Shown here piece after piece: positions 21,984-27,699 of a DNA stretch of 36,276 bases (the stretch's first letter is position 1; the number at the start of each line of letters is the position of its first letter). A program made the position numbers and the translations under genes. The notes beneath the pieces were generated by a model. It searched no databases. It had not been told where the DNA came from and saw only the letters and a program-made list of their open reading frames with translations. This stretch comes from an uncultured Bacteroidota bacterium. GTDB taxonomy: Bacteria; Bacteroidota; Bacteroidia; Chitinophagales; Chitinophagaceae. Where the stretch lies: the NCBI GenBank assembly GCA_903916555.1, contig CAIWXG010000412.1:1-36276 (forward strand), read 5' to 3'.

Positions 21984-22243
21984 GTTCTTTTTTTAGGGTA
22001 AAGTTATAATTCTTTGTATGAAAGTGGAAAAGTAAGTAATGGTAGTTTAAAATCCCCGTTATTAAAACCCTCTTCCCCTCCAGGCATCAAGAAGCATCAA
22101 TAAAACCCGTTCTCTATACATATTCATAATATGTAGGCTAAATGAAAAGTACCATACCTAAAGCTTTACCCCAATATTCAATTTTTAAAAACACTCTTTT
22201 TCTTAAAAATAATTCGTTAATTTTATTTAAGAATTATTAAATA

Positions 22244-23856
22244 ATGAAAAAACTCTTTTTTTACTTAATTATATTTAGCCTTTTAACTACTATTGTTAAA
22301 GCACAAAGCCTATATATAGACAGCACAAGGTTTGTAGGTGGTGCTGATGCTTGTGGCGGAACAGAATGTAGATATGCATTTAAAACAGTAGATGGTAATA
22401 TATTTTTTAGCGGTGTTACTAATTGTGCTAATGGAGGTGGAAATATTCCTGTAAATTTCGTAGGAGAAGAGAATATTGTAGTCGGCAAATTAGACAGTAA
22501 TTTGAATGTAGTTTGGGTAAAGGTTTATGGTGGTTCCAGAAGTGATGTGCCAAAAAGTGCTGTTCAAACAAGAGATGGCGGTTATGCTGTTTTAACTACT
22601 ACCTATTCAAACGACCACGATGTTTCAGGTAACCATGATACCACAGGTAGTACAGGTGATTTATGGGTAATAAAGATAGATAGTAACGGGAATCTTTTAT
22701 GGCAAAAATGCTATGGAAGTATTAGCGATGAGCAGGCAATTTCTATTACTACAACCCAAGATAATGGATTAATTTTTTTTGGTAATAGCCAGGGACAAGG
22801 TGGTGATGTACCCTCCCATCATTATGGTTCTGCATGGAATTACGATTGGGTTGTAATTAAAACAGACAGCGTGGGTAATTTGCAATGGAGTAAAACTATC
22901 GGAGGTACAGGTGATGAAAGTTCTGTAGGGGGGGTATTATAACAGCAAACAATGGTTATTATATGGTCGGTTCAAGCTGGTCTCGAGACTTTGATTGTAA
23001 CGATACTTTCTGGCATCCGAATGTTGGGTGCGGTATGGATTATTTTATGTTCAGGTTAGAAAATAATGGTAATATTTTGTGGGACAGCAGCTATGGTGGC
23101 AGCGGAAATGAATGGATTTATGGGGCTGTATTAGACAGCAGGGACAGCAGTATTGTAATTAACGGAAGCACATATAGTAATGATTTCATGGTAACCGGAT
23201 ACCACGGAAATGGAGATTACTGGGTAATAAAAACAGATAAGAATGGAAAATTATTGTGGCAAAAATGCCTCGGTGATTCTTTATTACAAGATGCGTATGG
23301 TATTTGCAATACACAAAATGGTTACATGGCTTATGGAAGTACCGGACCCGGCAGTATCGGTCAAACTGATGGATGGATTTTTCAATTAGACATGTTAGGT
23401 AATTCGATTACCAATAAACAATTTGGCGGACTACATTATGAAGACCCTGCAAGTATTTTAGCTTTTAAAAACGGTTTTATTGCAACCGGTGCAAGTAATT
23501 CTTTATATTTTACTGAAGGTAAAAATATAAGTTTTTTACCAGGTGCGGATGCCGATGCCTATTTTACTTATATTAGTAATGTGCCTTGTGAAGTAAGGTA
23601 TGTAAATTATAATACATGCAAACAAATAATTGCGTACCCAAACCCTATATATGATAAAGTTAATATTTTGCTACCAAATAAAAATGGAAATATAGTAATC
23701 AAAAATTATTTTGGTAAAAATATTTATCAAAGAAAAATAGTTGAAACAGATAAAGTTTTAGATGTCAATACAACAAATTGGAGCAAAGGTTTATACATAA
23801 TAGAGTGGATTGATGACGATGGTACATTTTTAACAAATAAAATTATTATTTATTAA
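22244..23856 (+). pseudogene. T9SS type A sorting-domain secreted protein split by a frameshift at a G7 tract
   Basis: ORFs 22244..22942 (signal peptide, repeats such as TGDLWVIKIDSNGNLLWQKCYGS) and 22963..23856 (the same repeats, e.g. GDYWVIKTDKNGKLLWQKCLGD, then AYPNPIYDKVNILLP...WSKGLYIIEW CTD). Reading through after the G-run in the other frame gives GGIITANNGYYMVGSSWSRD, continuous with ORF 2. Confidence 0.8.
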
Positions 23857-23872
23857 TTATAAAAATACAGTT

Positions 23873-24049
23873 ATGAAGCCAATTTTAAAAAGTGCAATTG
23901 CGATTTTGTTACTATGTATTAACGGCAAAGCATATTCCCAGTTATACAATGTTTCGGCACCTGTTGTAACAGTAAATAGTGCGGCAAATGCATTCAGGTC
24001 TAATTTGTCTGTAAGTAATACTCTTGAAGGGGTGGTCTTGACCAGTTAA
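23873..24049 (+). pseudogene. 3'-truncated secreted protein gene (58 aa remains)
   Basis: ATG at 23873: MKPILKSAIAILLLCINGKAYSQLYNVSAPVVTVNSAANAFRSNLSVSNTLEGVVLTS*. It has a clear signal peptide followed by an abrupt stop at the edge of the accessory region. Confidence 0.6.
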
Positions 24050-24139
24050 AGTTTTTCAATACATTTTGGTCAGAGCGGGTTTATAGGAACGATTCATCCG
24101 GGCATACAATGTTTGAACAATATCATAGAAGTTTATTGT

Positions 24140-24313
24140 GCCTTTGTTGGTGTTTTCACCAACAAACAACATCATAATCCAAAATAGCTAAGTTTTTTAT
24201 CTTTATATTCGCTTTGTTGGTGCTTTCATAAACAAAAACTTATTATAATTAAAATGGATTATACTCGTCATCGGAAGAACCAACTATTTGTTGGTGAAAA
24301 CACCAACAAAGGC
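24140..24313. repeat. 174-bp MITE-like element, copy A (direct repeat flanking cassette)
   Basis: Exact 27-bp terminal inverted repeats GCCTTTGTTGGTGTTTTCACCAACAAA / TTTGTTGGTGAAAACACCAACAAAGGC, each also an internal hairpin. A degenerate third copy is at 24211-24236. Near-identical to 27482..27655. Confidence 0.9.
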
Positions 24314-24383
24314 GTAAAAGAATATATTTGTTATTGCAAAGGTTTATATGTTTTTTGAATAAAAAAAATAAATATTCATAATA

Positions 24384-24415
24384 TTGTTAAATTATTTGAA
24401 AATAAGGTATCTTTG
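24384..24415 (+). promoter_or_regulatory. Candidate Bacteroidetes sigma-ABfr promoter in front of the cassette
   Basis: TTG at 24384-24386, 21-nt spacer, TATCTTTG at 24408-24415 (TAnnTTTG). Confidence 0.35.
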
Positions 24416-24624
24416 ACCTGTATAACTACCAATCTTTTAATGGCAATAAGGAATATGATGATTTACTAAGAAGGAGTATAGAATGTATTGATGCTGAAAT
24501 TGTTTTTTACGTTAGGGATACTAAAGGCAATTGGCCTGAAAATCAGAAGGAAATACATTTTGGAAACGAAAACAGAAATGAAGTAAGGATTTGTGTAAAC
24601 GAAATAATAAAACATTTGAAATAA
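24406..24624 (+). pseudogene. 5'-truncated gene fragment of unknown family
   Basis: Open frame with no start codon: GIFDLYNYQSFNGNKEYDDLLRRSIECIDAEIVFYVRDTKGNWPENQKEIHFGNENRNEVRICVNEIIKHLK*. It ends 3 nt before the next ATG. Confidence 0.55.
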
Positions 24625-24627
24625 CAA

Positions 24628-25602
24628 ATGGAATATCATGTACCCGATGCAAGGTGGGCAATATTTGGAATGCCTGATTTTGAGAGCTACAATAATAAGC
24701 TTGTGGTTAAGGGACTATTTCATTCTGGTGTACCAAAAGATGTATTAGAAGCGTACAAAGTTGCCGAGTATATAATGGCACATGCTTATTATCACTACAC
24801 TCTTTATGAAGAAGCATTTTCAAAATTATTATTGATATTTGAAATGGCTATTAAATTAAGATGTGGACAAATGGGTATAACTTTAAACACCATTACCGTT
24901 AACAAGAAAACCCAGGAGAAGGTAACAACAGATAAAAAACTAAAAACCTTAATTGATGAATTATCTGTTAAAATAGATTTGAAGGATATTGAGGAACAAT
25001 TACAGATTCTTCGTGAAATAAGAAACACTAAAATGCACCCAATAACAAATGGAGTTTCCGGTGCAATATCTTTTAAGTCTATAAAAATCTCTGTTGTTCT
25101 TCTCAATAAGTTATTCTTACATGAACAAAAAATAAAGAATAGACAACTTAAAACAGTGGAAATCGAAACGGTTTTTGCAGCTTTTAAAATGGGTAATTTT
25201 GTTTTAGAGCGAGAAGGAAAAAGGTTCCTGAGTATAGGGATACTTATTCTTGATTCAGTTCAAGTTGATGAACAATGGTTTCACCTAATGGTATGTTTCC
25301 CTGTAATCGAAAAGTTAAACAACCTGATTGTTGAAAAGAAATATCCAAATCCTTTTATTTTTACTATTAGTAACATTGTCTTAGAAAAGAACCGTTTTTC
25401 TGCAATTGAAATTGAAAATAATAAGCCAGTTAAATTTTACAGAACAAATAATCCATTGGATTTAGGTAAGTTTAGTAATTTTCACAACGAAATAATAAAG
25501 GTAACTGAAGATGATAGAATAATTTATGATTCTTGGGTTCGTGATGAAATAAACTGGGAAAGAACTGATTTTTTGTATCAATGGTTATGGAGGGTTAAAT
25601 AA
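24628..25602 (+). CDS. Hypothetical protein with HEPN-like N-terminal region (candidate defence component)
   Basis: Predicted helical N-terminus with LQILREIRNTKMHP, matching the HEPN Rx4-6H motif (R-NTKM-H). The C-terminal region is of unknown family. Confidence 0.55.
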   Translation: MEYHVPDARWAIFGMPDFESYNNKLVVKGLFHSGVPKDVLEAYKVAEYIMAHAYYHYTLYEEAFSKLLLIFEMAIKLRCGQMGITLNTITVNKKTQEKVTTDKKLKTLIDELSVKIDLKDIEEQLQILREIRNTKMHPITNGVSGAISFKSIKISVVLLNKLFLHEQKIKNRQLKTVEIETVFAAFKMGNFVLEREGKRFLSIGILILDSVQVDEQWFHLMVCFPVIEKLNNLIVEKKYPNPFIFTISNIVLEKNRFSAIEIENNKPVKFYRTNNPLDLGKFSNFHNEIIKVTEDDRIIYDSWVRDEINWERTDFLYQWLWRVK

Positions 25603-25656
25603 TTGAAACTTAGATAATATGCCTAATTTTGTAAAAGTCAGTCAAAAAATTAAACT

Positions 25657-26907
25657 ATGAGAAAGATTAAAATAAAAAATTTTGGACCCATAAAGGAAGG
25701 TTATCAAGATGGAGATGGCTTTATGGAAGTAAAAAAAGCAACTGTTTTTATTGGCAATCAAGGTAGTGGAAAAAGCTGTGTAGCAAAATTGATTTCTACA
25801 TTGAGTTGGATGGAGAAAGCAATGGTAAGAGGTGATTTTAAAACTCAAGACCTAACTGTTTATAACAGATTTAGAAAGCATTGTTCTTACCAAAATATTG
25901 GCAATTATTTTATTGATAGCACTTCTCCTATTCATGGTACAGTTATTGAATACCAGGGGAAGGCATATAATATAAGCTATAAAAACGGTGAAACATTAGT
26001 AGAAAAGAATGCCGAAAATGGTTATTCCTTTCCTAAAATAATGTATGTGCCGGCAGAACGTAATTTTGTGAGTGCTGTAAAGAATGTAATCAAATTAAAA
26101 GGACTGCCAAACACATTATATACATTTACGGAGGAAGATAACAAAGCAAAGGAAGATTTGAATAGTCCACTGGAATTACCTATCAACAAAGCAAAGTTTG
26201 AATACAGAAAGCCAAGTGGCGTATCATGGATTGTAGGCGATGGTTATGAAGTGAGGTTATCAGAAGCCTCAAGTGGTTTCCAGTCATCTGTTCCGTTGTT
26301 TCTTGTAACAAGATATTTAGCATTATCTATCAATAAAGAAAAGGATGGCTCTGTAAAAGAAATTAGCATAGAAGAAGAAAGAAGGATAAGAAAAGAGATT
26401 GAGAAAATTTTATCCAATCCCAATTTAACTGAAGATGTTAAAAAGGCATCATTAGAATTCCTTTCCGCAAAATTTAAATACTCTTGTTTTATTAATATTG
26501 TGGAAGAACCTGAGCAAAATTTGTTCCCAACTTCCCAACAAAATCTATTGAATAGTTTGTTGTCGTTTAATAATATGAACGAAGGGAATATGTTAGTAAT
26601 AACCACCCATAGCCCTTATATAATAAACTATCTTACCTTAGCAATTAAAGCCTTTTTTCTTTTGGGGCTAATAAAAACTACCGATAAAATAGATGAATTA
26701 AATACAAAACTGAAAGAAATTGTTCCACTTGAATCAACTGTCAATCCAGAAGAATTGGCAATATATGAATTAGATGACAAAGGGAATATTATTAAGCTTG
26801 GAAATTATAAGGGGTTGCCATCTGATGAAAACTATTTGAATGACAGGCTATCCGAAACAAATGACTTATTTTCTCAACTTTTAGATATAGAAGACTTATG
26901 CCAATAG
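25657..26907 (+). CDS. SMC/OLD-like AAA (AAA15/AAA21-type) ATPase, candidate defence component
   Basis: N-terminal IKNFGPIKEG, Walker A FIGNQGSGKSCVAK, signature-like LSEASSGFQSSVPL, Walker B FINIVEEPEQNLFP and H-loop VITTHSPYIIN. Confidence 0.88.
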   Translation: MRKIKIKNFGPIKEGYQDGDGFMEVKKATVFIGNQGSGKSCVAKLISTLSWMEKAMVRGDFKTQDLTVYNRFRKHCSYQNIGNYFIDSTSPIHGTVIEYQGKAYNISYKNGETLVEKNAENGYSFPKIMYVPAERNFVSAVKNVIKLKGLPNTLYTFTEEDNKAKEDLNSPLELPINKAKFEYRKPSGVSWIVGDGYEVRLSEASSGFQSSVPLFLVTRYLALSINKEKDGSVKEISIEEERRIRKEIEKILSNPNLTEDVKKASLEFLSAKFKYSCFINIVEEPEQNLFPTSQQNLLNSLLSFNNMNEGNMLVITTHSPYIINYLTLAIKAFFLLGLIKTTDKIDELNTKLKEIVPLESTVNPEELAIYELDDKGNIIKLGNYKGLPSDENYLNDRLSETNDLFSQLLDIEDLCQ

Positions 26908-27395
26908 ATTTTTTTCAAGCGGGCTGTAGAACTGAATCATCTATTAAAATATTTGGACTTTGCGATAACCCTCCACCAGCTACCGACCCAGCATATATAG
27001 ATGAGTTAGATACTTCAAAATGGATTGGGGAGGTTGTCAAAGACGATGAATTACCAGTAGCATTTTATGCAATAGACCATTGTGTAGAAGTGCGCAGACC
27101 AAATAATGACCTGGCAAAGCGATGCGACGGAATTCTTGTTTATAGAGATAATATAACTTTTGTCGAATTAAAAGACAGGGGTTCAAGTGGTTGGGTTAGT
27201 GGTGGTAGAAAACAGCTTACTGAAACAATATTATTTTTCAAAGCAAACCATGACATTGGAGTTTATTCAATTGCAGATGCAAGGATTTGTAATAAACAAC
27301 AACCATTGGCTGTAACAAATATTGCCACAGAAATTCAAAAATTAAAGGATGATACTGGATTGAAATTAATTGTAGATAGGGCAATAAAAATTTAG
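26898..27395 (+). CDS. Small PD-(D/E)xK-like nuclease, candidate effector
   Basis: RCDGILVYRDNITFVELKDRGSSGWVSGGRKQLTETI resembles the D...ExK catalytic core. It overlaps the ATPase gene by 10 bp. Confidence 0.55.
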   Translation: MPIDFFQAGCRTESSIKIFGLCDNPPPATDPAYIDELDTSKWIGEVVKDDELPVAFYAIDHCVEVRRPNNDLAKRCDGILVYRDNITFVELKDRGSSGWVSGGRKQLTETILFFKANHDIGVYSIADARICNKQQPLAVTNIATEIQKLKDDTGLKLIVDRAIKI

Positions 27396-27397
27396 CG

Positions 27398-27529
27398 ATG
27401 TCTTTTAACGAACTCAATAGTGTTGAACATCTTATTATAAAGGAATTGACCGGTGTCAACCTGAATAATACCGAAATTTGTGCCTTTGTTGGTGTTTTCA
27501 CCGACAAACAACATCATAATCCAAAATAG
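27398..27529 (+). pseudogene. N-terminal fragment of a type I restriction HsdR-like protein, truncated by repeat copy B
   Basis: MSFNELNSVEHLIIKELTGVNLNNTE resembles HsdR N-termini. The frame then runs into the repeat (ICAFVGVFTDKQHHNPK*) and stops. Confidence 0.45.
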
Positions 27530-27655
27530 CTAAGTTTTTTATCTTTACATTCGCTTTGTTGCTGTTTTCATAAACAAAAACTTATTATAATTAAAATGGA
27601 TTATACTTGTCATCGGAAGAACCAACTATTTGTTGGTGAAAACACCAACAAAAGC
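27482..27655. repeat. 174-bp MITE-like element, copy B
   Basis: Same length and orientation as copy A with 6 substitutions counted by eye. The match extends to 24136-24317 vs 27478-27659 (constant offset 3342). Confidence 0.9.
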
Positions 27656-27699
27656 GTAATATATACCTTACAAAGCAAATAAAAAAAACCGGAGACAGC

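Follow-up and report, generated by a model that had tools for sequence, protein, structure and literature searches.

A probable slice of a type I restriction-modification operon, with a HEPN gene and PDC-M29, between direct repeats in a Chitinophagaceae genome

Some type I restriction-modification (RM) operons carry toxin-like genes among their hsd genes, such as PrrC in EcoprrI and the rarely linked RloC. These accessories are HEPN-type RNases, and PrrC-like proteins are freed when the restriction enzyme is blocked by a phage (PMC3874168, PMC12707154). The HEPN RNases as a whole are defined by the motifs Rx4-6H and Ex3[KR] (PMC3710099). Another relevant system, PDC-M29, is a phage defence candidate in PADLOC-DB. 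In the window (the whole 36,276-nucleotide stretch analysed, from an uncultured Chitinophagaceae bacterium), genes of both kinds lie on the forward strand in one cassette bordered by two direct repeats. The cassette consists of the remnant of a GIY-YIG-like nuclease gene, an intact HEPN gene, M29A, M29B and the start of hsdR, and is very probably a slice of a type I RM operon held in a variable slot.

By sequence, the ATPase and nuclease of the cassette correspond to PDC-M29, a known candidate system. The first gene (25657-26907) encodes a full-length PDC-M29A, an AAA_15/AAA_21 (ABC-type) ATPase (5.4e-176). The second (26898-27395) encodes a full-length PDC-M29B (2.5e-52) containing D60, E90 and K92, a PD-(D/E)XK-like signature that is invariant in 12 aligned proteins. 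The two genes are adjacent and in the order of the described system. The window copy differs from that system in having a HEPN gene upstream and truncated GIY-YIG-like and hsdR genes at its borders.

The HEPN-family gene (24628-25602) encodes a protein of 324 aa. Both defining motifs are present, with R132 and H137 (Rx4H) and E72 and K76 (Ex3K) invariant in nine aligned homologues and N133 supplying the polar residue in the window protein. For the four-helix fold of the superfamily, the structure model reached a pLDDT of 37 and the DUF4145 match only E 0.056. Relatives are encoded beside or near hsdR (C152, G081, G049 and G011), with BrxA and BrxC (G151), and with SngA-SngB-SngC on a Hymenobacter plasmid. 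This is an uncharacterised family, lacking a PADLOC model, whose genes are found alongside type I RM, BREX and Shango operons in Bacteroidota, and it offers a concrete target for the study of shared abortive-infection effectors. Besides the window gene, family members were located at L098:5671-6636, L100:5256-6227, L105:9995-10957, L099:5868-6839 and L101:5345-6295.

The right edge of the cassette points to its donor. Directly after M29B, the first ~25 codons of hsdR, the type I restriction endonuclease gene (27398-27477), are cut by repeat B, and similarity to hsdR ends at about 27473. The peptide encoded from 27398, MSFNELNSVEHLIIKELTGVNLNNT, has 100% identity across 25 aa with the N-terminus of an HsdR encoded on another contig of the same genome (C152), with 87% identity between the two hsdR starts at the DNA level. 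The C152 operon reads hsdM-hsdS-HEPN-DarT-DarG-hsdR. Its Pfam assignments are Methylase_S, DarT, Macro and HSDR_N, while HsdM was assigned by its position and its similarity to the counterpart in a distant relative (G212). The C152 HEPN is 44-45% identical to that of the window (79% in DNA over the first 237 bp), and the C152 hsdR is itself broken after ~350 residues. An Abi_2 / PD-T4-5-like gene is also present upstream at this locus (L098:2755-9963).

In the distant relative the operon reads hsdM-hsdS-Macro-M29A-M29B-hsdR, and its Macro protein is 53% identical to the C152 DarG. This 146-aa Macro-domain protein sits between hsdS and M29A (L053:9133-9573), which looks like a replacement of the remainder of DarTG by M29AB. 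The same slot is thus filled by DarTG in C152 and by M29AB in G212, which argues that the cassette is a slice of an operon of this kind. DarTG itself, which occupies the place between HEPN and hsdR in C152, is absent from the window, and its proteins are unrelated to those found there. The sequence-only reading had proposed that truncated genes stand at both borders of a cassette cut from a larger operon. Both parts of this are supported by the GIY-YIG-like remnant on the left, the hsdR N-terminus on the right, and whole type I RM operons in which HEPN-DarTG or Macro-M29AB fills this place. These comparisons support a type I RM operon with an exchangeable accessory slot as the predicted donor. 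The border thereby gains a traceable history, in which DarTG, PDC-M29AB and HEPN modules exchange within one type I RM slot.

The cassette derives from a type I RM operon but is not one, as the window contains neither hsdM nor hsdS and only ~25 codons of hsdR. A slice of an accessory slot can evidently be carried off without its hsd genes. In this it is unlike the loci of PrrC and RloC, and the window HEPN also does not have the anticodon-nuclease domain architecture of those proteins. Since hsdM, hsdS and most of hsdR are missing from the slice, control by the restriction enzyme would have been lost. By analogy with PrrC, the window HEPN would then either be deprived of its restriction-enzyme partner or answer in trans to another enzyme.

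The left edge is less obvious. The earlier description was of a 72-codon frame without a start codon that stops 3 nt short of the HEPN gene and starts less than 100 bp after a repeat, and each of these details was borne out. Translation of 24406-24624 returns the 72 residues quoted there followed by TAA, the HEPN ATG is at 24628, and because repeat A spans 24136-24317 the frame opens 88 bp downstream of it. A stop codon (TAA, 24403-24405) directly precedes the frame, and no in-frame ATG, GTG or TTG is present. Start codons are missing from just 2 of the 82 open stretches of at least 72 codons in the whole window.

A stretch of this kind could be a chance stop-free run within a 5′ leader of the HEPN operon that is transcribed from a promoter-like motif overlapping its beginning (TTG-N21-TATCTTTG, 24384-24415), and both this motif and the missing start codon fit that idea. 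Under a first-order random model of the window, a stop-free run of 72 codons has a probability of ~0.0065 per frame, and only 1% of such runs are scored as resembling coding sequence. The GC content at the three codon positions (0.40/0.24/0.26) resembles that of the neighbouring HEPN gene (0.41/0.26/0.25), which also speaks against a chance leader. The coding origin of the fragment is settled by its homology to full-length proteins.

These relatives were reached through sub-threshold tblastn matches on a Persicobacter plasmid, a Sinorhizobium plasmid and in a Vibrio phage. The corresponding full-length proteins match one another (E 2e-11 and 6e-6) and thus form one family, which two viral contigs joined through a profile scan to give five full-length homologues. 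A profile built from these five proteins, with the fragment excluded to avoid circularity, scored the fragment at 42.8 bits (E 5.5e-10, Z=200,000), while the best of 20,000 shuffles scored 12.4 bits. The match covers profile positions 104-149 out of 173 (104-153 are present in frame) and contains the C-terminal block of the family, IExAEIVFxIRxxxGxWPxxQxEIHF, including WP-x2-Q-x-EIHF. This match refutes the chance-leader reading, which we consider extremely improbable. The fragment is instead an ordinary pseudogene, the C-terminal remnant of a gene whose N-terminal core is gone.

Single-sequence searches with the fragment in 396 genomes of the phylum and 299 of the family returned chance matches only, to HtpG and other unrelated proteins. 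Neither an intact nor an N-terminal copy of its gene was found elsewhere in the same genome or in 40 sampled relatives, and scans of viral contigs with the fragment, the HEPN protein and M29A gave no matches. A degraded match in one genome (G123, E 0.16) was left unclassified. Two other identities for the fragment were rejected. Pfam HNH_3 (E 0.049) was below threshold and is contradicted by the later five-protein profile, and an HsdS C-terminus is at odds with the lack of similarity to the C152 HsdS, which precedes the HEPN gene in that operon.

The family looks like GIY-YIG nucleases, although it stays below curated thresholds. In the full-length relatives the N-terminal part contains K-x-Y-(L/I)...YVG-x-T together with a conserved later Glu, as in the GIY-YIG (URI) superfamily. 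The best Pfam match of one viral-contig protein (L152) is PF01541 (GIY-YIG), at 12.7 bits and E 0.16 against a cut-off of 22.6, and its sole PDB family match is the UvrC GIY-YIG domain, also below threshold (E 0.44-0.49). The next Bacteroidota match of the profile is a bona fide PF01541 protein (domain E 1.8e-6). The name GIY-YIG-like is based on the Y...YVG-x-T motif, the PF01541 and UvrC matches and this profile neighbour; a structure prediction for the family had a pLDDT of 39, too low for use. The window copy departs from the superfamily in retaining the C-terminal part alone, and with no intact core and no start codon it would be inactive. The full-length L152 gene (7920-8429) is located among the structural genes of its viral contig, as a homing or moron gene would be.

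Between repeat A and the fragment is an AT-rich stretch of 88 bp (24318-24405) with stops in all three frames. This 88-bp offset between the repeat border and the beginning of the frame counts against the operon-slice explanation. The gene may have been cut at the border and have decayed since, with the 88 bp as what is left of the GIY-YIG core. In the frame of the fragment, the sequence directly after repeat A reads RIYLL (24319-24333), 33 codons before LYNYQ, and its counterpart in the family is KIYIA, ~36 positions before YYGYQW. A search constrained to that frame and distance gave p of about 0.015-0.018, but it was designed after the sequence had been seen, so the match is only a hint of such decay. 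With frameshifts allowed and neither frame nor distance constrained, a search of 24318-24418 for the core gave a non-significant p of 0.165.

The stretch also holds most of the promoter-like motif noted above, and a second motif of the form TTG-N21-TATCTTTG is found at 25603, between the HEPN gene and M29A. Bacteroides promoters have this form. As it has nine matches in the window, on both strands, a promoter function for either copy can only be suggested. The motif at 24384-24415 may be a working promoter even with the chance-leader reading refuted.

The sequence-only reading had further suggested that the missing N-terminal portion may be a fourth component, to be checked by whether full-length homologues lie upstream of the same HEPN, ATPase and nuclease genes. 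The 3-nt, operon-like spacing to HEPN and the coding-like composition would suit the remains of a genuine fourth gene in a HEPN-M29A-M29B defence system, its N-terminal part having been lost at the border, and nucleases of both the GIY-YIG and the HEPN type are known to accompany modification systems (PMC10853773). Full-length homologues were indeed found, but none of the five, the only ones known, has HEPN or PDC-M29 genes nearby. The full-length GIY-YIG-like gene is likewise missing from the 19 M29AB loci and the nine other HEPN-family loci examined. Nor are HEPN and M29AB themselves a fixed pair. The window-type HEPN is absent from those 19 M29AB loci (18 other genomes), so that M29A-M29B stands without it in every other locus examined, and its family occurs instead with DarTG, hsdR, BrxA/BrxC or SngABC. 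As HEPN and M29AB occur apart, the trio is best described as two exchangeable modules and not as a fixed three-gene system. The suggestion of a fourth component is therefore not supported by the loci examined, in which full-length homologues never adjoin these genes, the outcome named beforehand as refuting it, and we regard it as unlikely. No operon with a full-length GIY-YIG-like gene directly before a window-type HEPN was found, and the place of the remnant in the donor operon is inferred from its 3-nt spacing to HEPN alone.

The elements that border the cassette are genus-specific interspersed repeats. Repeat A (24136-24317) is 182 bp long, with ends TTGTGCC...GGCGTAA and 27-bp terminal inverted repeats, each a palindrome in its own right, and repeat B (27478-27659) is a direct copy that is 97% identical. 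Fifteen copies align with the same sharp ends, and the repeat is predicted to fold into a long hairpin whose stem measures 27 bp (z -7.9). An Rfam match to MIR530 was rejected at 25 bits against a cut-off of 85, as it reflects the long hairpin only. Among 61 genomes searched, full-length copies were found only in the same genome and in a congener (G397). To the left of repeat A, a 58-codon frame with a signal-peptide-like start (23873-24049) ends ~90 bp before the repeat with no downstream remainder, and is probably another truncated gene.

In the congener the right flank is kept together with a 98% identical repeat copy, and the left flank is kept up to window position 22046, followed by 282 bp and then by a repeat copy at the contig end. 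The cassette is missing from this corresponding locus. As both flanks and the repeat copies are present without the cassette, the interval is a variable slot marked by the repeats. Window positions 22047-24135 are also absent at the same place in the congener; two outer-protein-like frames lie in this segment, and the reading frame is broken near 22942-22963.

That the slice stands between these particular flanks could be the product of an assembly join through the 182-bp repeats, since the draft assembly is fragmented into 494 contigs, and one contig of the congener (C115) breaks off within a repeat. Several positions distinguish repeat A from repeat B, and the junctions of repeat A with the GIY-YIG-like remnant and of hsdR with repeat B are internal to the contig, both of which argue against an artefact. 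The truncations would stand even if the outer flanks had been swapped, and we consider such a misjoin quite unlikely.

For the operon slice, a small GIY-YIG-like nuclease gene would have been the upstream neighbour of HEPN in the accessory region of a type I RM operon. The end of that gene, HEPN, M29A, M29B and the hsdR start now appear by sequence between two direct repeat copies, and excision by recombination between copies inserted in the donor operon would be the simplest account. HEPN, M29A and M29B are full length and, judging by their families and motifs, probably still form an anti-phage module. M29A, as an ABC-type ATPase, would sense or gate, M29B would be a PD-(D/E)XK-like DNA nuclease, and HEPN would be an RNase effector that was at first linked to the restriction enzyme. 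Transcription may proceed from the promoter-like motifs immediately ahead of HEPN and ahead of M29A.

The genes enclosed by direct repeat pairs elsewhere include a Trypsin_2 gene and one for a RelE-type toxin. A broader proposal, which we find unlikely, is that the repeats are the ends of a genus-specific cassette-capturing element, integron-like without a known integrase. On this proposal, direct pairs would take operon slices (here from a type I RM accessory slot), cut wherever the element happens to lie, into repeat-marked chromosomal slots. If the repeats do move slices, this would be a novel way for defence genes to spread among Bacteroidota. Repeats were also seen in direct pairs or arrays at L061 and L133-L140, and a gene-fragment-like frame adjoins one copy (L137).
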